A stretch of 64,000 bases of DNA from Rhodoligotrophos defluvii. GTDB taxonomy: Bacteria; Pseudomonadota; Alphaproteobacteria; Rhizobiales; Im1. The stretch lies in contig NZ_SZZM01000003.1 in the NCBI RefSeq assembly GCF_005281615.1, positions 538,207-602,206 of the forward strand, written 5' to 3'. Of the stretch, positions 2,361 through 33,160 are shown piece after piece. The notes below the pieces were generated by a model, which was given only the letters and a program-made list of their open reading frames with translations, ran no database searches and was not told the DNA's origin. The position numbers and the translations under genes are program-made. Numbering within the stretch: the first letter of the stretch is position 1; every line of letters begins with the position of its first letter.

Positions 2361-4757
2361 TCAGTGGGTAATCTCCTCGAGTCCCCACTCCTCGATCTCC
2401 GGCATGTCGCGGCCATGGGCCCGCACATAGGCATGGTGCTCCACGAGCTTCCGCTCGCAGGCCGCGATCACCTGTTGCCCTTTCGCGCCCGTTTGCGGCA
2501 GCCACTTGACGGCGGCCATGGCGAGATGGACGCGATCCAGCCGGTTGAGGACGACCATGTCGAACGGTGTCGTCGTCGTCCCCTCTTCTCGATAGCCGTG
2601 CACGTGGAAGGCGTCGTGGTTGGGACGTTTGTACGTCAACCGGTGAATGAGCTGGGGGTAGCCGTGGAAGGCGAAGATCACCGGCTGGCCGATGCCGAAC
2701 AGGCTTGCGAACTGCTCGTCGGGTATGCCATGCGGATGCTCTTCCGGCGACACCAGCGCCATCAGGTCGACCACATTGACCACCCGCACCGAGACCTCCG
2801 GCAGGTGCTGCCGCAGAAGCTGTGCCGCGGCGACGGCCTCCATGGTGGGAACATCACCGGCACAGGCAAGAACCACGTCCGGCTCGCGTCCCGGCTGCTC
2901 ACTGCCCGCCCAAGACCAGCGGCCGAGGCCGGCCTCGCAATGAGCGATGGCCTGGTCCATGTCGAGCCACTGTGGCGAAGGTTGCTTGCCCGCCACGATC
3001 ACATTGATGCGATCATAGGTCCTGAGACAGTGGTCGGTCACCCACAGCAGGGTGTTGGCGTCCGGCGGGAGGTAGACCCGCACGATCTCCGCCTTCTTGT
3101 TCACCACGTGGTCGATGAATCCCGGGTCCTGGTGGCTGAAGCCGTTATGGTCCTGTCGCCAGACATGGGAGGTGAGCAGATAATTGAGCGACGAGATCGG
3201 CGCGCGCCACGGAAGGTCTCGGGTCACCTTCAGCCATTTGGCATGCTGGTTGACCATGGAGTCGACGATATGGATGAAAGCCTCGTAACACGAGAACAAT
3301 CCATGGCGGCCGGTGAGGAGATAGCCTTCCAGCCAGCCCTGGCACAAATGCTCGCTCAGCACCTCCATGACGCGGCCTTGCGGCGCGAGCCCCACATCGA
3401 TCGGCAGGATGTCTTCCCGCCACACCCGGCTGGTGACGTCGAACACCGCGTCCAACCGGTTCGAGGTGGTCTCGTCAGGCCCCATCAGGCGAAAGCTGCT
3501 CGGGTTCCGCGCGATCACGTCCCTGAGCAAGCGCCCCATCTGCCGCGTCGCCTCCCCGCGCGCCACACCGGGCCGCTCGACAGCCAGGCCATGCGCGCGA
3601 AAATCGGGCATATCCAGCGGCTCGCGCAGCAAGCCGCCATTCGCGTGGGGATTTGCCCCCATTCGCCGCTGGCCCTTGGGGGCCAAGTCCTGCAACTCCG
3701 GCATGAGCCGGCCATTCCGGTCGAACAGGGTCTCGGGCCGATAGCTTCGCATCCAGGTCTCGAGCATCTTGAGATGCGCGGGATTTTCAGCAAGTCCCGC
3801 CAACGGCACTTGGTGCGAGCGCCAGAAGCCCTCCACCTGCTGGCCGTCGACGTCGTGCGGGCCGGTCCAGCCCTTGGGTGAGCGCAAGATGATCATCGGC
3901 CAGCGCGGAACACCATTACCCCCGCCCTGCCCGCCGATCCGGGCCTCCTGCTGAATGGCGTGGATGCGACCGATCGCCCGGTCGAGGATTTCCGCCATGC
4001 GCTGGTGCATCACCGTGGGATCGCTGCCTTCGACGAACAGCGGCTCATAACCCAGGCCCTCGAACAGCCGCACGAGATCGTCATGCGCCATGCGCCCGAG
4101 GATTGTGGGGTTCGCGATCTTATAGCCGTTGAGGTGGAGGATCGGCAGCACCGCACCATCGCCCACCGGATCGAGAAACTTGTTGGAGTGCCATGACGCC
4201 GCGAGCGCGCCCGTTTCCGCCTCGCCGTCGCCGACCACACAGGCAACGATCAGCTCGGGATTGTCGAAGGCAGCGCCGAATGCGTGGGCGAGCGCGTAGC
4301 CGAGTTCGCCGCCCTCATGGATCGATCCCGGTGTTTCCGGCGCCGCATGGCTGGGTATGCCGCCGGGAAAGGAGAACTGCCGGAACAGACGCCGCATGCC
4401 ATCCACATCTTGGCTGACCTCCGGATAAATCTCGGAATAGCTGCCCTCGAGATAGGTATTGGCGACCACCGCCGGGCCGCCATGGCCGGGGCCGCAAATG
4501 AAGATCATGTCGAGGTCGTCGCGCAAGACCACGCGGTTGAGATGCGCATAAACGAAATTGAGGCCGGGCGTCGTGCCCCAGTGACCGAGCAGGCGCGGCT
4601 TTATGTGGGAGAGCTTCAGCTCCTCCTGCAGCAGCGGGTTGTCGAGGAGATAGATCTGCCCGACCGAAAGGTAATTGGCCGCGCACCAGTAGCCATGAAT
4701 ATTTTGGAGCTCCCTCTCGCTGAGCGGTTGCGAAACGGCTTCGGCCAAATCACTCAT
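2361..4757 (-). CDS. xfp: Phosphoketolase (xylulose-5-P / fructose-6-P)
   Basis: This thiamine-diphosphate enzyme splits xylulose 5-phosphate (and often fructose 6-phosphate) with phosphate into acetyl phosphate and a shorter sugar phosphate in the cytoplasm. The 798-residue product has the family length of about 790-800. Both signature regions are present: [16 protein letters not shown] near residue 145 and [18 protein letters not shown] near residue 520. The start at 4757 is chosen because AGGAGGG lies directly upstream at good spacing; a frame extending to 4835 has no such site. No acetate kinase or phosphotransacetylase gene is adjacent, so the fate of acetyl phosphate cannot be read here. 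The gene stands alone, and no divergent partner shares its promoter except possibly the DUF3096 gene. Confidence 0.95.
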
Positions 4758-4985
4758 GGAACCCTCCTGCTCGGCTGCATGCCTCGGAGCCGGGAACCAC
4801 GACGTCGTGCCGATGGTTGCACATCTCAGTGACAAGGGATGGGCTCATCGCGCAACCGCGATCACGAAAACGTTACCACGGTCCAGGGAACAACGCACCG
4901 GCTACGACGTTTTAACCATACTCGGTCACTTATCCCCCGGTGACCGCGAGATCCAAGCTCCTTCCCCGCGGAGCCGATCTCATAG

Positions 4986-5016
4986 AAAGCCCCGGTGCTC
5001 CCCCCACCGGGGCTTT
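4986..5016. terminator. Strong hairpin upstream of the DUF3096 gene
   Basis: A perfect 12-bp stem (AAAGCCCCGGTG at 4986-4997, CACCGGGGCTTT at 5005-5016) has a 7-base loop. It ends 24 bases before the DUF3096 start and is not preceded by a plus-strand gene. It may be a leader or attenuator hairpin, or a terminator for an unseen short transcript. Confidence 0.5.
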
Positions 5017-5040
5017 GCTTGCCCGATCGCGAGAGTTGCC

Positions 5041-5184
5041 ATGAATGTCACCATAGATCCCGCCCTGATCCAGCCCCTGATCGCGCTCGTCGCCGGCATT
5101 CTCATTCTGGTGATGCCGCGGCTGCTGAATTACGTGGTGGCTATATATCTCATCGTGATCGGCCTGCTCGGCCTGTTCCGCTAA
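5041..5184 (+). CDS. DUF3096-family small membrane protein
   Basis: A 47-residue protein made almost entirely of two hydrophobic helices, with LIALVAGILILVMPRLLNY followed by VVAIYLIVIGLLGLF. This matches the DUF3096 pattern (a conserved ILI.MP.LLNY core between two membrane spans). The function of the family is unknown; location is the inner membrane. ATG 5041 follows a weak GCGAGAG site. The strong hairpin at 4986-5016 ends just upstream and may act as a leader structure. Confidence 0.8.
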   Translation: MNVTIDPALIQPLIALVAGILILVMPRLLNYVVAIYLIVIGLLGLFR

Positions 5185-5287
5185 AGTTTCGGGCGAAGGT
5201 CGACGATAGCGAAAGGTGGGGAACCGGTTTTGGAAACGGGTCGAGCGTGAGCTCGACCCGCGCTGCTGCTGAAGGGCGTGGTTCCGC

Positions 5288-5815
5288 TTACCCGCGGCAG
5301 AACTTCAACCGGCCGGAATGGGTCCTGAAATACCCGGTGCTCGGATCGAAGCTGCGATAGCGGCTTGAGCAGTAGCGGTACCAGGCCGGCGACCATGGCC
5401 GCAGTCCGCCGTAAACATAGGCGGGGCGATAGCCGTAGCCGTAATAGCCCCCACCATAAAGGGGCGCCGTAGCCAAGGCTGCCGCGCCGAGCCCGAGCCC
5501 CAGGCCCAGCCCTATGGCCGGTCCAGGGCCCCAGCCCCAACCGCGATGGCGCCAGCCGTGCCGCCAGCCGGGGCCCCAGCCGCCGCGCCAGCCACCCCAG
5601 CCGCCATGACGCCAGCCACGGCCCCAACCGCCACGCCAGCCGCCGCCACCCCAGAACCGATCCCGCACCTGGGTCGTCTCCAGGCCGGTCGCTTGGCGCA
5701 TGCTGTCAGCCATGGCGATCGAGCTGATCGGCGATGCAGCGGATGCCGCATTGGGAGCCAGCGCGGTCAAACCGATCACCATAGCTCCTGCAAGCCCTAA
5801 CATTGCATTCTTCAT
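5288..5815 (-). CDS. BA14K-family secreted Gly/Trp/Arg-rich protein
   Basis: A 175-residue exported protein. It begins with a signal peptide (MKNAMLGLAGAMVIGLTAL, then Ala-rich to about residue 27), continues with a low-complexity Gly/Trp/Arg/His stretch (about 55-110, repeats of the WRGGWG and WRHG type) and a Gly-rich hydrophobic patch, and ends in the BA14K domain (WYRYCSSRYRSFDPSTGYF, about 145-175). BA14K proteins are known from Brucella and other Rhizobiales as surface or lectin-like antigens; the role here is not shown. The start is placed at 5815 because AAGGAG lies 6-7 bases upstream; an in-frame ATG two codons earlier touches that site. Confidence 0.88.
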   Translation of the reverse strand: MKNAMLGLAGAMVIGLTALAPNAASAASPISSIAMADSMRQATGLETTQVRDRFWGGGGWRGGWGRGWRHGGWGGWRGGWGPGWRHGWRHRGWGWGPGPAIGLGLGLGLGAAALATAPLYGGGYYGYGYRPAYVYGGLRPWSPAWYRYCSSRYRSFDPSTGYFRTHSGRLKFCRG

Positions 5816-6260
5816 CGTCATCTCCTTCGGACCGGGCCCGCAGCCCGGCTCATGATCGAAGACGCTCGCTGTCCAGCCCCCGTTTTTCCGCTTCCGCCGT
5901 CCAGAGAAAGGGAGCGGATGAAGGACGCACGGCGACACTCCCCTGCTCTGCGCACCAACGCCAGTGTGCCGAAAATGGCTCCCAAGGTGATTGCGAATCC
6001 TCTGCCTTGGTAAAGACTGTCTACCTCGGAAGCGTGAACCGACCCTGAACGCACAACCTTAAGGTGCAGAGACGATCAGCGGATCAGGGAATGGCCGTCG
6101 GCGGAAAAGGCGCGCAAATCTGAACCGCATGGCCGCAGAGGCCCGCCCTGGCGATGCAGGTGTAAGAGAGGCGCACGCGCAGCACCCCAATGGCAATTTC
6201 ATCGGCAGTTGTTGCTTGGGCACGACACCAGCGAGGAGCGTGGACCGGAATGGGGCGACT
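5816..6260. other. Intergenic stretch without a recognised gene
   Basis: It holds the promoter region of the BA14K gene, but I see no conserved reading frame, RNA gene or repeat. The plus- and minus-strand frames present are short and lack domain features. Confidence 0.4.
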
Positions 6261-6473
6261 TTACCCGCCCCGTTTGCCGGGCGCCGCTTCAGGCAGGTGG
6301 TCCTCTGTCCCTGATGCTTTTTTGTCGCGAGCCGACGACGGTGCCGGACGGGAACCGCAGAACACGAGAACCGTCTGCCCCGTCATCGCCGCCCGCAGGG
6401 GCCGTCGAGCCACCGCCTTTTGGCCTCTGGGTGCGCCCGGAGAGATCTTGCCGTCCTTTTCGTTGCTGCTCAT
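6261..6473 (-). CDS. Small polar protein of unknown function
   Basis: A 70-residue, Lys/Arg/Pro/Ser-rich protein, probably disordered, with no recognised domain. It is included because its ATG is preceded by a textbook AGGAGG site with a 7-base spacer, and it lies 55 bases downstream of the GNAT-like gene on the same strand, so the two could be one transcript. Composition alone would not support it. Confidence 0.45.
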   Translation of the reverse strand: MSSNEKDGKISPGAPRGQKAVARRPLRAAMTGQTVLVFCGSRPAPSSARDKKASGTEDHLPEAAPGKRGG

Positions 6474-6528
6474 GCCCTGGCCTCCTGCAGCATGCGCGTG
6501 GCCTTCCGTTGATCGGTCGACCCGTGGT

Positions 6529-7158
6529 TTATTTCCTGCCTTGCGCGTCAGATCGGCTGCGCGGGCCCCCAGCGGCCTTGGATCCCTGCACTTTGCCGCC
6601 GCCCGCTGTCCGCAATCCTCCCATACGATGCGCTGCCGGACGCAAGAATTCGTCGTCCCAGGTCAGCCCTGCCAAGCCTCCATTCGCCGACTCTGGCGCC
6701 TCGGCGCCAAACTCGTCGGCGAATGTCGCATTGCCTGTCATCTGCACCACGCCCTGCGCCCGGCAGAGCGCGGTGGCCGTGTCAGCGAGCTCCCGCGCGA
6801 TGATCGACCGGTACTTGGACCGTTTGACGACGGCCCGGTCGAAGGTGGCGACCTTCCCGCTTATGCGGATACGCAGGGCTCCCACCGGTGCACGACCATG
6901 CCATGCAAGCAAATGGATAGCGCCGAAATCGCTGTCGTCAATCTCTGTCGCCTCCCGTCCTGCGCTATCGGACAAATAGCCCGCGGTGCGCAGCGCGAAC
7001 ACCACGTTCAGCTCGTCGAGCGTCTCGACCACGGTGACCGACAGGCGCCGGTCACGTCTCCCACTCCTCGCCCGCCCTAACCCGCTTGGGTCCGGGACGT
7101 GCGGCTCCTCCCCGCCCCCTTGCCGCGCGGCAAGGCGGAACAACCGGCTGCTCTCCAT
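6529..7158 (-). CDS. GNAT-fold acyltransferase-like protein
   Basis: A 209-residue protein. The N-terminal 35 residues and C-terminal 45 residues are polar and probably disordered. The core (about 40-170) has the arrangement of a GNAT or acyl-homoserine-lactone-synthase-like fold: a first strand and helix (VVETLDELNVVFALRTAGYL), an acidic stretch (EIDDSDFGAIHLLAW) and the hallmark strand VGALRIRISGKVATFDRAVV leading into an Arg-rich helix. The substrate is unknown and a standard acetyl-CoA R/Q-x-x-G-x-G/A motif is not clear. ATG 7158 follows GAGGAGG, a strong ribosome binding site. The likely transcript includes the small frame downstream. The fold call is tentative. Confidence 0.65.
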   Translation of the reverse strand: MESSRLFRLAARQGGGEEPHVPDPSGLGRARSGRRDRRLSVTVVETLDELNVVFALRTAGYLSDSAGREATEIDDSDFGAIHLLAWHGRAPVGALRIRISGKVATFDRAVVKRSKYRSIIARELADTATALCRAQGVVQMTGNATFADEFGAEAPESANGGLAGLTWDDEFLRPAAHRMGGLRTAGGGKVQGSKAAGGPRSRSDAQGRK

Positions 7159-28493: not shown

Positions 28494-28545
28494 GGGATGG
28501 CGTCCGCTTTCTTTGAGCCTCTCCTCTACATTTGTTACCAACTCG

Positions 28546-28560
28546 ATAATAAATCGTTAA
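28546..28560 (-). promoter_or_regulatory. Near-match to a CtrA site upstream of ftsZ
   Basis: On the minus strand the sequence reads TTAA-CGATTTA-TTAT, one base off the CtrA consensus TTAA-N7-TTAA, about 55 bases before the ftsZ start. CtrA control of ftsZ is known in Caulobacter. The match is imperfect and could be chance. Confidence 0.3.
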
Positions 28561-28647
28561 CGCTGCCTTACTCCCGGTCACATTTTGAACCACTGCGGCA
28601 GCAATCCGTTAACCCACCCTTTGCAAATCTGGGCGGCTGGGCTCGGT

Positions 28648-29028
28648 TCAGCGGCGGGTGGCGGGCCTGATGCCGAGCCGGCTCTTCGCGTGGTCCACAG
28701 CGTCTGCCAGCCCGCGAATGTCTCCGGCATCGAGAGCCCGGATCACCCGTTCGAGCAGCCGCCGCGCTGAAACCTCCGTCGCGTCGACCCGCTTTTGCCC
28801 GCCTGGCATTTCGGGCAGCATCAGCCATTCCAGGGAAACCCCGAACGTGCGCGCATATTTGAGGCCCATGTCGGCATCGAACGAGACGGCTCCGTTCTCG
28901 TGCGTCCGGTACGTCGATTCCTTGACACCAACTTTCCTGGCAGCGGCTCGTGCGGTAGTGAACCCCGCTGCTATTCGGGCCTGCCGAAGCCTGTCTGCAC
29001 GCTCGATGACGAGTCGGTGTTTGTCCAT
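28648..29028 (-). CDS. XRE-family helix-turn-helix regulator
   Basis: A 126-residue DNA-binding protein with an HTH_3 domain at about residues 12-68: DRLRQARIAAGFTTARAAAR, then KVGVKESTYRTHENG and the usual end helix ALKYAR-like segment (GLKYARTFGVSLEWLML). The rest (about 75-120) is a short helical tail. No ribosome site is strong. It is divergent from an FAD monooxygenase whose upstream region carries three tandem repeats, so local regulation of that gene is a reasonable guess. It lies in the segment between ftsZ and ftsA, where most relatives have no genes. Confidence 0.88.
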   Translation of the reverse strand: MDKHRLVIERADRLRQARIAAGFTTARAAARKVGVKESTYRTHENGAVSFDADMGLKYARTFGVSLEWLMLPEMPGGQKRVDATEVSARRLLERVIRALDAGDIRGLADAVDHAKSRLGIRPATRR

Positions 29029-29053
29029 ACCGGCTTGTTAATCGATGACCGCC

Positions 29054-29083
29054 TTATAATTCTCGCGATTCAAGGTCGGCCAA
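29054..29083 (-). promoter_or_regulatory. Candidate promoter of the XRE regulator
   Basis: On the minus strand TTGGCC (29083-29078) and TTATAA (29059-29054) are separated by 18 bases. The -10-like box is about 25 bases before the XRE start codon. Confidence 0.3.
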
Positions 29084-29265
29084 CGCTAAAGATATTGACA
29101 CGCCCCACCGAACCCGGGCGACATAGGCGATGCGATCCGCGCGGCCAGCGAGCCCCCGAGCGTTGTGCGGATCAGGCGGGAGCATCAGCCGTCCGATGAA
29201 CGGACTGGTGCTCCCGTTTCCGCGACCGGTCGCTTGCCGCCCCGCCGGCAAAGTGCTCTATTCCA

Positions 29266-29318
29266 AACAGCTTTGCTGGTCCGAACAGCTTGCTGGTCCG
29301 AACGGCTTTGCTGGCGCC
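29266..29318. repeat. Three tandem 17-18 bp repeats before the monooxygenase gene
   Basis: AACAGCTTTGCTGGTCCG (29266-29283), AACAGCTTGCTGGTCCG (29284-29300) and AACGGCTTTGCTGGCGCC (29301-29318) follow each other directly and end 22 bases before the start codon. Each contains an inverted repeat of the type C[AG]GC-TT(T)-GCTG. This is the layout of a multi-site operator. Confidence 0.6.
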
Positions 29319-29340
29319 AAGCCGTGCAGGAGAAGGGCGC

Positions 29341-30597
29341 ATGACCGATACCCTGGACACCCGGTGCTGTGTTGCCGGCGGCGGCCCCGCCGGTCTCATG
29401 ACAGGTTTCCTGCTCGCCAGAGCCGGCGTGGACGTCGTCGTTCTGGAGAAGCACAAGGATTTCTTCCGCGATTTCCGCGGTGATACCATCCACCCCTCGA
29501 CGCTTGAATTGATGAACGAGCTGGGCCGGTTGGAAGCTTTCCTCGAGCTGCCGCACAATAAGGCGGAGACGTTGAGCGCCGTGTTCGGAGAGGACGAGAT
29601 CCAGGTCGCCGATTTCCGGCACCTGCCGACCCGCTGTAAATTCCTGGCGATCATGCCGCAGTGGGATTTTCTCAACTTTCTGGCGTCCGAGGCGCGCGCC
29701 TACCCTAATTTCCGGCTACTGATGGAAGCAGAGGTTGACGACCTCCTGATCGAGGATGGAAAAATTCGTGGCGTTGCGGCCCAAACCCCCTCGAGCCGCC
29801 TTGCGATCCGGGCAGACCTCACGATCGGCGCCGACGGCCGCAGCTCCACCGTGCGCGAAAAGGCAGGACTTGTGCCCCGCGACCTCGGCGCTCCCATCGA
29901 CGTGCTGTGGTTCCGCTTGTCCCGCAAGCCAGAGGATCCTCCGGCCACCATGGGCCGTTTCGCCGCCGGCCATCTGATGGTGCAGATCAATCGCGGCGAC
30001 TATTGGCAATGTGCGTACGTCATCGCCAAAGGCGGCTTTGATGCGATCAAGGCGGCGGGTCTGGACAGCTTCCGGCAGGCGATCTCGTCGCTTATGCCTG
30101 GATTGGCCGGACGGCCGGACGAACTCCAGGACTGGGATCAGATCAAGCTGCTGACCGTGCAGGTCAACCGGCTGGAGAAATGGTGGCGCCCGGGTCTGCT
30201 GTGCATCGGCGATGCCGCCCATGCCATGTCGCCGATCGGCGGCGTCGGCGTCAATCTCGCCGTGCAGGACGCGGTTGCCGCCGCCAACGCGCTCGTGCCT
30301 CCGCTGCGGGCAGGCCAGCCGCTCGAAGATGCCATGGCCGCGGTTCAGGCACGGCGGATGTGGCCCACGCGGGTCACCCAGCAGCTGCAGCTGGTGATAC
30401 AGGACCGTCTGCTCAAACCGCTGCTGGCCAGCAAGGAGCTGCCCGCGCCACCGCTGCCTCTACGGATCATGGACCACTGGCCGGTTCTCAGCCGGCTGCC
30501 GGCACGACTCATCGGGCTCGGGGTGAGGCCGGAACATGTGCAGACCCCCGATGTCGCAAGATCCGCCCCCGGGCAGCCGGCGCTCGATCTGCAATGA
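29341..30597 (+). CDS. FAD-dependent aromatic-ring-type monooxygenase
   Basis: A 418-residue flavoprotein of the UbiH/PHBH family, which usually hydroxylates aromatic or quinone-like compounds with NAD(P)H and oxygen. The Rossmann motif is GGGPAG (about 13-18), EKHKDFFRDFRGDTIHPSTL follows, the DG motif is IGADGRSS (Asp about 165) and the GD motif is CIGDAAHAMSPIGGVGVNLA (Asp about 291). No membrane segment is seen. ATG 29341 has GGAGAAGGG upstream. It is divergent from the XRE regulator and precedes the pepsin-like gene on the same strand. The substrate is unknown. Confidence 0.9.
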   Translation: MTDTLDTRCCVAGGGPAGLMTGFLLARAGVDVVVLEKHKDFFRDFRGDTIHPSTLELMNELGRLEAFLELPHNKAETLSAVFGEDEIQVADFRHLPTRCKFLAIMPQWDFLNFLASEARAYPNFRLLMEAEVDDLLIEDGKIRGVAAQTPSSRLAIRADLTIGADGRSSTVREKAGLVPRDLGAPIDVLWFRLSRKPEDPPATMGRFAAGHLMVQINRGDYWQCAYVIAKGGFDAIKAAGLDSFRQAISSLMPGLAGRPDELQDWDQIKLLTVQVNRLEKWWRPGLLCIGDAAHAMSPIGGVGVNLAVQDAVAAANALVPPLRAGQPLEDAMAAVQARRMWPTRVTQQLQLVIQDRLLKPLLASKELPAPPLPLRIMDHWPVLSRLPARLIGLGVRPEHVQTPDVARSAPGQPALDLQ

Positions 30598-30751
30598 CCG
30601 CAGTATCAGCCGCCGCCGTTTCGTTGAGCTTGCCTTAACCGCTTCCGGCAAAACACTGCCCGCCTGTCACACAGGGACATTGTGCATTCCCTGCGCCCAT
30701 GCGATCAGCCCTATGTTCATACCAAATGCCCGATCGAGGCAGGTCCGGATC

Positions 30752-31822
30752 ATGCCATCGAAATTGCTCTCACCCCATGCGGCTGCTGCCGCCTTGCTGT
30801 TGGGCATTGCCGTCGCCCTGCCCTCGCTCCGAGCAGCGGCGGACGACCTTCCGAGCTATGCCGATTTCACCGACGGGGTCTTCCTGCCCTACCTCAATGC
30901 TGGCGATGGCGACCTCACCCGGCCGCCGCGGCTGGGCCTTTCCCTTGGCGGGCGCATGCTGGCAGCGGTGGTGGATTCGGGCTCGACGGGCATTGTGGTG
31001 GCCGCCGCCTACATGCCGGACTGGCAGCAGCTGGAGAGTGTTGGGGAAGGACGGATCACCTATACCAGCTCCGGCCGCGTGATGAGCGGCCAATGGGTCA
31101 TCACGCCGGTGACCGTCCAGGGCGCCGACGGAAGCAGCGTTGCCACCACACCCATGCCGGTTCTGGTGGTCACGGAGGTGACGTGCCTGGAGCATGCCCG
31201 CAATTGCCAGCCGAACGATGACCCGCACGGCATCGCCATGATCGGCATCGGCTTTGCCCGCGAGCATGATGCCCAGGCCCAGGGCACGCCCGACAAGAAC
31301 CCGCTGTTGCAGGTGGCGGCCCAGGAGGGCCAGAAGCAGCGTCGCGGCTACATCCTGACCCAGCGGGGTGTGCATGTCGGCCTTACCGGCGCCAATACCC
31401 GAGGCACTTTCCGTGCCGTCAAGCTTGACCGGCAGCAGACGGTGGACGACTGGTCGCCGATACCTGCCTGCATCTCGATCAACGGCACCATGCCGCCCGC
31501 TTGCGGCACCATGCTCGCCGATACCGGCGTGACGGCCATGTTCCTCACCGTGCCGGCAAGCCAGGCCGGTGAAAACGAAGGCACGCTGCCGCCGGGCACC
31601 GAGGTCTCGCTGCTGCTCAACTCGGCAGATGGCGCACCGAGCGAGCTCTACAGCTTTACCGCAGATGATGGATCATCACCGCTCGCCCCAAGCTCGATCC
31701 ATCTCCGCGTCTCGCCCGAACGCACCTTCGTCAACACCAGCCTGCACATTCTGAACGGCTTCGACGTGCTTTATGACGCCGATGGCGGCTATGTGGGCTT
31801 TCGCGCCCGAGCCGGCCAATAA
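30752..31822 (+). CDS. Secreted pepsin-like (two-lobed) aspartic peptidase homologue
   Basis: A 356-residue exported protein with a signal peptide (LSPHAAAAALLLGIAVALPS, to about residue 30). Two aspartate motifs are present: VVDSGSTGIVV (Asp 75) and LADTGVTAMFLTVP (Asp 257). They are 182 residues apart, close to the spacing in pepsin. Between them, RITYTSSGRVMSGQW resembles the pepsin flap region, including its Tyr (104), and GIAMIGIGFAR resembles the conserved GILGL strand; NPLLQVAAQ follows as in pepsin. Cysteines at about 145, 152, 240 and 251 could pair. It begins 154 bases after the monooxygenase stop and converges on ftsA. Peptidase activity is inferred only; family A1 in bacteria is rare. 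Confidence 0.7.
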   Translation: MPSKLLSPHAAAAALLLGIAVALPSLRAAADDLPSYADFTDGVFLPYLNAGDGDLTRPPRLGLSLGGRMLAAVVDSGSTGIVVAAAYMPDWQQLESVGEGRITYTSSGRVMSGQWVITPVTVQGADGSSVATTPMPVLVVTEVTCLEHARNCQPNDDPHGIAMIGIGFAREHDAQAQGTPDKNPLLQVAAQEGQKQRRGYILTQRGVHVGLTGANTRGTFRAVKLDRQQTVDDWSPIPACISINGTMPPACGTMLADTGVTAMFLTVPASQAGENEGTLPPGTEVSLLLNSADGAPSELYSFTADDGSSPLAPSSIHLRVSPERTFVNTSLHILNGFDVLYDADGGYVGFRARAGQ

Positions 31823-31846
31823 GAAAGCCGGCGCAGCAGCTTGCGG

Positions 31847-33160
31847 TCAGAAGCTCTCGCGGAACCAGCGGCCCACCCGCCGCATGTAGCCGTCATTCCG
31901 CGGTCGCCGGGGCTCGACCATGATGCTCTCGTCCGGTCGCAGCGCATAGGCGAGAAGCCCGGAGGCCACCGCGAAATTGGGGCTGCGGATCGCTTCCGGC
32001 ATGCCGGTCAGCGGCTGTGGGAAGCCAAGCCGGATGTGGCGGTCGAGGATCTGGCTGGCCAGCTCGCGCGCGCCCGTCATCTGGCAGGCACCGCCGGTGA
32101 GCACCATGCGCCGGCCGGCCAGCTTGGCGAAACCCGAAGCCTGCAGCCGGTCCTTGATCAGCTCGAACGTCTCCTCGAGCCGCGGCCGCACGATGCCGGT
32201 GAGCATGGAGCGCGGGATCTTGTACACCGTATCCGTGCCGCGCTCGCCGACCAGCGGCACCGACAAGAGCTCCCGCTCGTCGAGCGCGCTTGGAATGGAC
32301 GAGCCATAGAGCGTCTTCATGCGCTCCGCATGGGCGATGGGCGTGGAGAGGCCGCGCGCAATGTCATTGGTGATGTGATGCCCTCCGATCGGGATCACAT
32401 CGGCAAAGACGAGATTGCCCTCGAAGAACACCGCAACCGACGTTGTCCCGCCACCCATGTCGATGCAGGTGACGCCCATGGCCATCTCGTCTTCCACCAG
32501 CACGGAGCGGCCGGCCGCATAAGGCGCGATCACCAGGCCGGCAATGTCGAGATGGCAGCGCTCGATCGCGAGCGACAGGTTGCGCAGCGGGCCCGGCTCG
32601 ACCGTGACCACGTTGAGATCGACCCCGAGCTTCTCCCCGAACATGCCGCGTGGATCGCGAATGCCGCGCACGTCGTCCAGCGCATATTGCACGGGCGTGG
32701 TGTGCAGCACCACCCGGCCCGGCGCCTGGATGCGTTCCCCGGCCACCTGGATTGCCCGCTCCACGTCAGTGGGGCCGACCTCACGGCCGCCGACCCGGGT
32801 CTCGCCGGTCACCGCCTCGCAGCGCGGACGTCCCCCCGAGACATTGACATAGACCTGGTCGATGCTGATCCCGGCCATGCGCTCGGCCGCATCCACCACC
32901 AGCCGGATCGCGATCTCGGCCTGGTCGATATCGGTGATGGAACCGCAGCGGATGCCCACGGCCGCCTGGTGGCCGACGCCGAGAATGTTGAGGCTCTGCG
33001 TCTTTGCGCCGCCGAAGGCGCGGTTGCGCGTGGTCCGCACCTCCGCAATGAGGCAGCATATTTTCGTCGAGCCGACGTCGATCGCGGCGATGATCGGAGA
33101 ATTGGGCGCGGGACGACGATGATGCTGGTTTTTACGCGCGTGCAACGGAACGACGTTCAT
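31847..33160 (-). CDS. ftsA: Cell division protein FtsA
   Basis: An actin-like ATPase of about 437 residues that tethers FtsZ to the membrane. Phosphate-binding motifs are IAAIDVGSTKICCLIAEV near the N-terminus and CIDMGGGTTSVAVFFEG in the second half, with VLTGGACQMTGARELA near the end. The C-terminus RRVGRWFRESF is the usual amphipathic membrane-targeting helix. The start is chosen at ATG 33160, where a GGGAG site lies 12 bases upstream; a GTG at 33196 is in frame. It is the last gene of the dcw operon; ftsZ is not next but 3.4 kb away past three inserted genes. Confidence 0.96.
   Translation of the reverse strand: MNVVPLHARKNQHHRRPAPNSPIIAAIDVGSTKICCLIAEVRTTRNRAFGGAKTQSLNILGVGHQAAVGIRCGSITDIDQAEIAIRLVVDAAERMAGISIDQVYVNVSGGRPRCEAVTGETRVGGREVGPTDVERAIQVAGERIQAPGRVVLHTTPVQYALDDVRGIRDPRGMFGEKLGVDLNVVTVEPGPLRNLSLAIERCHLDIAGLVIAPYAAGRSVLVEDEMAMGVTCIDMGGGTTSVAVFFEGNLVFADVIPIGGHHITNDIARGLSTPIAHAERMKTLYGSSIPSALDERELLSVPLVGERGTDTVYKIPRSMLTGIVRPRLEETFELIKDRLQASGFAKLAGRRMVLTGGACQMTGARELASQILDRHIRLGFPQPLTGMPEAIRSPNFAVASGLLAYALRPDESIMVEPRRPRNDGYMRRVGRWFRESF

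Follow-up and report, generated by a model that had tools for sequence, protein, structure and literature searches.

The 64,000-nucleotide stretch of the Rhodoligotrophos defluvii genome analyzed here (the window) encodes a 356-residue protein that we consider likely, from its sequence, its predicted fold and analogy with characterized relatives, to be an exported and active aspartic peptidase, monomeric and two-lobed, functioning in the periplasm or at the cell exterior. The original prediction, made from the nucleotide sequence, was of a secreted pepsin-type peptidase homologue, and its basic observations hold: the open reading frame begins with an ATG at 30752 and ends in a stop codon, VVDSGST places one aspartate at residue 75 and LADTGV a second at residue 257, 182 residues apart, and Tyr104 in ITYTSSG, the GIGFAR sequence and the M163-I164-G165 strand lie where they had been placed. 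The gene and its landmarks are as follows.

30752..31822, plus strand: whole gene, 356-residue predicted exported pepsin-like aspartic peptidase homologue (open reading frame, 70% identical same-genus orthologue, dN/dS)
30752..30841, plus strand: predicted Sec signal peptide, residues 1–30 (sequence; same layout in nearly all homologues)
30842..31819, plus strand: mature two-lobed domain (predicted fold, pLDDT 91, pTM 0.90)
30974..30976, plus strand: putative catalytic Asp75 in D-S-G-S-T-G, N-terminal lobe (invariant; aligns with the first DTG of 1am5 and 4ehc)
31061..31063, plus strand: flap Tyr104 in I-T-Y-T-S-S-G (nearly invariant in homologues)
31184..31207, plus strand: conserved pair Cys145/Cys152, probable disulfide
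31238..31246, plus strand: psi-loop hydrophobic-hydrophobic-Gly, M163-I164-G165, counterpart of pepsin GILGL (sequence; G165 invariant)
31469..31504, plus strand: conserved pair Cys240/Cys251, probable disulfide (nearly invariant in the homologue alignment)
31520..31522, plus strand: putative catalytic Asp257 in D-T-G-V, C-terminal lobe (nearly invariant; aligns with the second DTG of 1am5)
31733..31741, plus strand: N328-T-S, replacing the second hydrophobic-hydrophobic-Gly (Asn invariant; N-T-G in most relatives)

The putative signal peptide has a lysine at position 4, a hydrophobic core from A10 to P24, and A28-A29-A30 immediately preceding D31. A hydrophobic segment stands just ahead of the conserved domain in nearly every homologue; L060 is lipoprotein-like, and L064 has no such segment. 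At most about ten residues separate the predicted cleavage site from the start of the fold, and here, as in nearly all homologues, no space is left for a propeptide. A promoter scan found no sigma-70-like site.

A confident AlphaFold2 model built from 30 homologues, together with its structural alignments and Foldseek comparisons, predicts a two-lobed, pepsin-like fold. The top structural alignment is to 4ehc, the C-terminal domain of Mycobacterium tuberculosis PE_PGRS16 (Z of 20.1, 256 residues, 3.1 A), followed by plasmepsin II (Z of 19.8), renin (19.7) and pepsin 6xcy (19.1, 260 residues aligned), with fungal aspartyl peptidases also among the matches at Z of 19–20; all of these are tied within the error of the method, and every one covers both lobes. 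Residues 9–321 of the model align with 4ehc and 12–324 with pepsin, although the eukaryotic matches are only 10–16% identical in sequence; Foldseek returned BACE1 at 1.1e-11. In the alignments the two D-[ST]-G motifs fall at the catalytic positions. The fold is thus two-lobed and pepsin-like, so that the outcome named in advance as counting against the prediction did not arise, and the secreted two-lobed fold with catalytic landmarks that had been proposed is borne out by structure prediction and structural alignment.

Assignment from sequence is less direct. The Pfam pepsin model PF00026 does not match the window protein, and a direct search of this single sequence against solved structures gave only chance-level matches; the models gag-asp_proteas, Asp_protease_2 and RVP match weakly near the first motif. 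PF20729 (PE-PGRS_C) is narrowly passed, at 36.1 bits against a cut-off of 33, the match extending little beyond the N-terminal lobe; in a six-frame search it scored 22.6 bits, under the same cut-off. The same model is matched at an E value of 0.01 or better by 25 of 30 relatives. The NCBIfam PecA equivalog NF038019 fails (27.2 bits against a cut-off of 150), and there is no PE domain in the window ORF. PF00026 is just passed by a distant autotransporter relative in genome G728. With a profile of the 30 homologues the best solved structure is 4ehc (6.6e-4), and a more diverse family profile brings up 4ehc (1.3e-7) as well as 1am5, the cod pepsin (5e-4); the D-T-G motifs of the two lobes are in register, the alignment to 1am5 extending to the C-terminal G-x-x-F-L-x-x-Y-x-x-x-Y-D-x(5)-V-G-F. 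Homology to the pepsin superfamily is therefore backed by sequence as well as structure.

The window protein shares with family A1 the two lobes in one chain, a D-[ST]-G in each lobe and the flap tyrosine; it has neither a PF00026 score above the cut-off nor a hydrophobic-hydrophobic-Gly in both lobes. The place of the second is taken by V-N-T-S, or V-N-T-G in many relatives, with an invariant asparagine, and for want of this pepsin feature we do not file the protein in A1 proper. The description as a pepsin-type homologue thus stands for fold and landmarks but not for strict A1 membership, and we say instead that the protein would belong to a wider pepsin/PecA group and, to judge from its sequence and model, work like pepsin. 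The nearest known group is not the shewasins, to which the prediction had referred: the PF20729 match, the rank of 4ehc and the profile searches point to mycobacterial PecA/PE_PGRS16 as the closest known relative.

Like PE_PGRS16 (Rv0977, 4ehc) and PecA, the window protein is bacterial, has the two-lobed pepsin-like fold and a predicted exported or surface location, and carries a first motif of the D-T-G-S-T-G-[IL]-V type with D-[ST]-G as the second; unlike them it lacks PE and PGRS domains and type VII secretion, and instead has a predicted Sec signal peptide and a Gram-negative host. Identity to PE_PGRS16 is about 20% in the structural alignment, and a further difference from PE_PGRS16 and PecA is the two conserved cysteine pairs that most close relatives of the window protein have. 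Shewasins A and D of Shewanella (MEROPS A1) are also bacterial, with two lobes, two aspartates, a flap tyrosine and no propeptide, but they are direct pepsin homologues that lack a signal peptide as well as a prosegment, shewasin D being mainly cytoplasmic (PMC2761423, PMC4814920), whereas a signal peptide is predicted for the window protein, which PF00026 does not match. With pepsin, renin and plasmepsin II it shares the fold across 260–270 residues, the I-T-Y flap strand and the C-terminal Y-D-x(5)-V-G-F, and the spacing of the two aspartates is 183 residues in pepsin and 182 here; it differs from all three in its low identity and the lack of a prosegment, and from pepsin in having Val for Trp39, Val for Thr218 and V-N-T-S for the second hydrophobic-hydrophobic-Gly. 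The Val at the Thr218 position might be taken to indicate a neutral pH optimum, but we do not rely on this; Ala is the usual residue at that place in bacterial A1 homologues, and shewasin D still works at acid pH (PMC2761423, PMC4814920).

The motifs are well conserved. Among 26 divergent homologues D75, G77 and S78 are invariant, as is the psi-loop glycine G165, while D257 and Y104 are nearly so, and this conservation shows that the D-[ST]-G motifs are not chance occurrences; in the homologue alignment C145 is invariant and C152 nearly so. The orthologue in another genome of the genus gives a dN/dS of about 0.2 (0.20/1.01), which indicates purifying selection on the gene. Only one divergent relative (L007:1084-2397, plus strand) has clearly lost the second aspartate; it reads LFGTG at that place and is probably, judging from this substitution, an inactive member of the family; it also has a weak match to DUF3443. 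We note separately that L068 matches DUF3443, PF00026 and PF20729; the pepsin-like superfamily may have one more branch in DUF3443.

Close homologues are found in Methylobacterium, Microvirga, Ancylobacter, Kaistia, Enterovirga and other genera, as well as in Serratia, Citrobacter and Atlantibacter, a patchy distribution across the alphaproteobacteria and a few gammaproteobacteria. The peptidase is present in 5 of 61 relatives, 7 of 289 genomes of the class and 7 of 398 in a sample of the phylum, and in 22 of 111 genomes of the genus of G342, which is apparently Methylobacterium because the G342 copy resembles the Methylobacterium copies. The Citrobacter gene has no DNA match in E. coli genomes. 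In a tree that contained no eukaryotic sequence, the window protein falls in a well-supported eleven-member clade, and the copy in G002, the third genome of the window genus, lies outside this clade; its position in the tree and its different locus suggest exchange from lineage to lineage. The family is scattered among bacteria and apparently undescribed: the open-access literature yielded no account of this proteobacterial group or of activity in any of its members, and none of a pepsin-like domain as autotransporter passenger or of a fusion of aspartic and serralysin proteases, which is weak evidence.

The same domain also occurs with machinery for other export routes. In five genomes (G019, G047, G339, G728 and G835) type V autotransporters that end in a PF03797 domain carry it as their N-terminal passenger, with two copies in G339 and two overlapping tandem ORFs in G728; plasmepsin and 4ehc are again matched (Z of about 19) by an AlphaFold2 model of the passenger from G019. 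In addition, six ORFs of about 1010–1100 residues in four genomes of the genus of G342 join an N-terminal pepsin-like domain to a serralysin (M10) domain and C-terminal RTX repeats. Both D-T-G motifs and an intact zinc motif, HEIGHxLGLxH, are present in all six (the Pfam scan covered two), and from sequence these would appear to be two-in-one proteases for type I secretion. The ORFs are listed below.

L055:2074-5304, minus strand: autotransporter with pepsin-like N-terminal passenger, PF03797
L056:2340-5744, plus strand: autotransporter with pepsin-like N-terminal passenger, PF03797
L057:1834-5277, minus strand: autotransporter with pepsin-like N-terminal passenger, PF03797
L058:4284-7616, plus strand: autotransporter with pepsin-like N-terminal passenger, PF03797
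L069:442-3552 and 3492-6950, minus strand: two overlapping tandem autotransporter ORFs, pepsin-like passengers, PF03797
L084:763-5148, minus strand: autotransporter with pepsin-like N-terminal passenger, PF03797
L083:1688-4975, minus strand: aspartic-serralysin-RTX fusion ORF
L085:3172-6288, plus strand: aspartic-serralysin-RTX fusion ORF
L086-L089: further aspartic-serralysin-RTX fusion ORFs

That the domain is found joined to a second protease and to machinery for surface display favors a proteolytic and extracytoplasmic role for the family.

The location of the window gene between ftsA and ftsZ had been remarked on as unusual. Its neighbors are as they had been named (FtsZ, an HTH/XRE protein, an FAD_binding_3 monooxygenase, FtsA and FtsQ), but the setting is not a conserved one and varies within the genus.

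28541-31847 of the window, with L053, L077 and L078: variable ftsA-ftsZ spacer, compared across G000–G003
28648-29028, minus strand: HTH/XRE gene adjoining ftsZ, without homologue in the compared genomes
29335..30597, plus strand: upstream FAD monooxygenase (PF01494), a neighbor only and outside the peptidase system

Peptidase and monooxygenase both lie between ftsA and ftsZ in the window genome (G000) and in G001; in G002 the spacer is about 7 kb and contains the monooxygenase without the peptidase, whose gene is on another contig, and in G003, from a related genus, ftsA and ftsZ are only about 0.3 kb apart. The spacer is thus a variable insertion site and uninformative as to function, and we reject a role in cell division that might be supposed from its position. 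No neighbor recurs beyond closely related species, and only the peptidase itself is common to the loci. For the XRE-type gene, a comparison with seven genomes from the genus, family and order gave no homologue, for which reason a functional link with it is also rejected; it would be a strain- or species-specific insertion.

We propose that the protein is exported by Sec, as its signal peptide implies, and that two probable disulfides lend it stability in the periplasm or the extracellular space. Each lobe would contribute one aspartate, Asp75 and Asp257 respectively, to hold and activate the water that attacks the peptide bond, with the flap Tyr104 closing over an extended peptide in the cleft, as in pepsin. 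Exported proteins may be its targets, whether for limited or for general proteolysis, which would make it a Gram-negative counterpart of PecA. Because there is no space for an inhibitory propeptide it would probably be active once folded, in which case control must come from pH, localization or access to substrate.

Whether the fold is catalytic is one point on which a different interpretation might be offered. PecA (PE_PGRS35) shares this fold and is a working protease dependent on its first aspartate (PMC6819658), but the solved relative PE_PGRS16 gave no activity when assayed, as reported in the same paper. The latter, together with the loss of the second aspartate in some relatives such as L007, could be taken to favor a catalytically dead binder or inhibitor resembling the pregnancy-associated glycoproteins or the family A1 xylanase inhibitor. 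The PE_PGRS16 case shows how difficult activity can be to demonstrate, and both aspartates, their flanking glycines, the flap tyrosine and the psi-loop glycine are kept in the window protein and nearly all relatives; such a long-kept catalytic set exceeds the needs of a binding-only role, which we regard as improbable. A narrower form of our preferred explanation, and not exclusive of it, is that the active peptidase is dedicated to processing one or a few partners, much as PecA, the closest characterized relative, processes particular exported proteins of the PE_PGRS type (PMC6819658). However, no partner gene travels with the peptidase, neighbors being common only to close species, its position varies even within the genus, and its presence is patchy both in the genus of G342 (22/111) and in the class (7/289), so that we see this specialization as rather unlikely.

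The remaining alternatives concern the kind of protein and its origin. The pepsin-like fold, the patchy distribution and the scores of renin, plasmepsin II and pepsin, all within about one Z unit of 4ehc, are what might be seen had a eukaryotic A1 pepsin gene been recently acquired; we think this highly improbable given that the best relative is bacterial by both sequence and structure, that there is no PF00026 match, that identity to the eukaryotic matches is 10–16%, and that DTGSTG[IL]V is a shared bacterial feature. Bacterial retropepsins such as APRc of Rickettsia and RimB and RloA of Pseudomonas share the clan AA aspartic chemistry, and some have a signal peptide or surface location, but they are single-lobed and active as dimers. 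That the window protein is of this single-lobe (A2-like) type with an accidental second D-T-G finds some encouragement in the weak gag-asp_proteas, Asp_protease_2 and RVP matches near its first motif, yet the model has two full lobes in one chain, aligned with 4ehc (9–321) and pepsin (12–324), and the second D-T-G is conserved in homologues; we give this interpretation almost no credence.

Two-lobed pepsin-type peptidases were long regarded as eukaryotic. The bacterial members reportedly announced in 2009 were predicted to be cytoplasmic, and PecA is said to be unusual among bacterial aspartic proteases in being extracellular. Taken jointly, our observations raise the possibility, which we hold tentatively and at a little less than even confidence, of a bacterial lineage of exported aspartic peptidases with two lobes, ancient and so far undescribed, that stands apart from the shewasins, connects the pepsins with PecA and DUF3443, uses multiple export routes (Sec to the periplasm, lipoprotein, type V passenger and type I RTX) and includes natural aspartic-serralysin two-in-one proteins. 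The family of Gram-negative proteins with signal peptides, in alphaproteobacteria and some enterobacteria, offers many independent and easily cultured cases in which the function of an exported bacterial pepsin can be approached. It also supplies deep bacterial sequences for dating the pepsin gene duplication, and if the branch is truly ancient, it would bear on whether that duplication predates the split between bacteria and eukaryotes.
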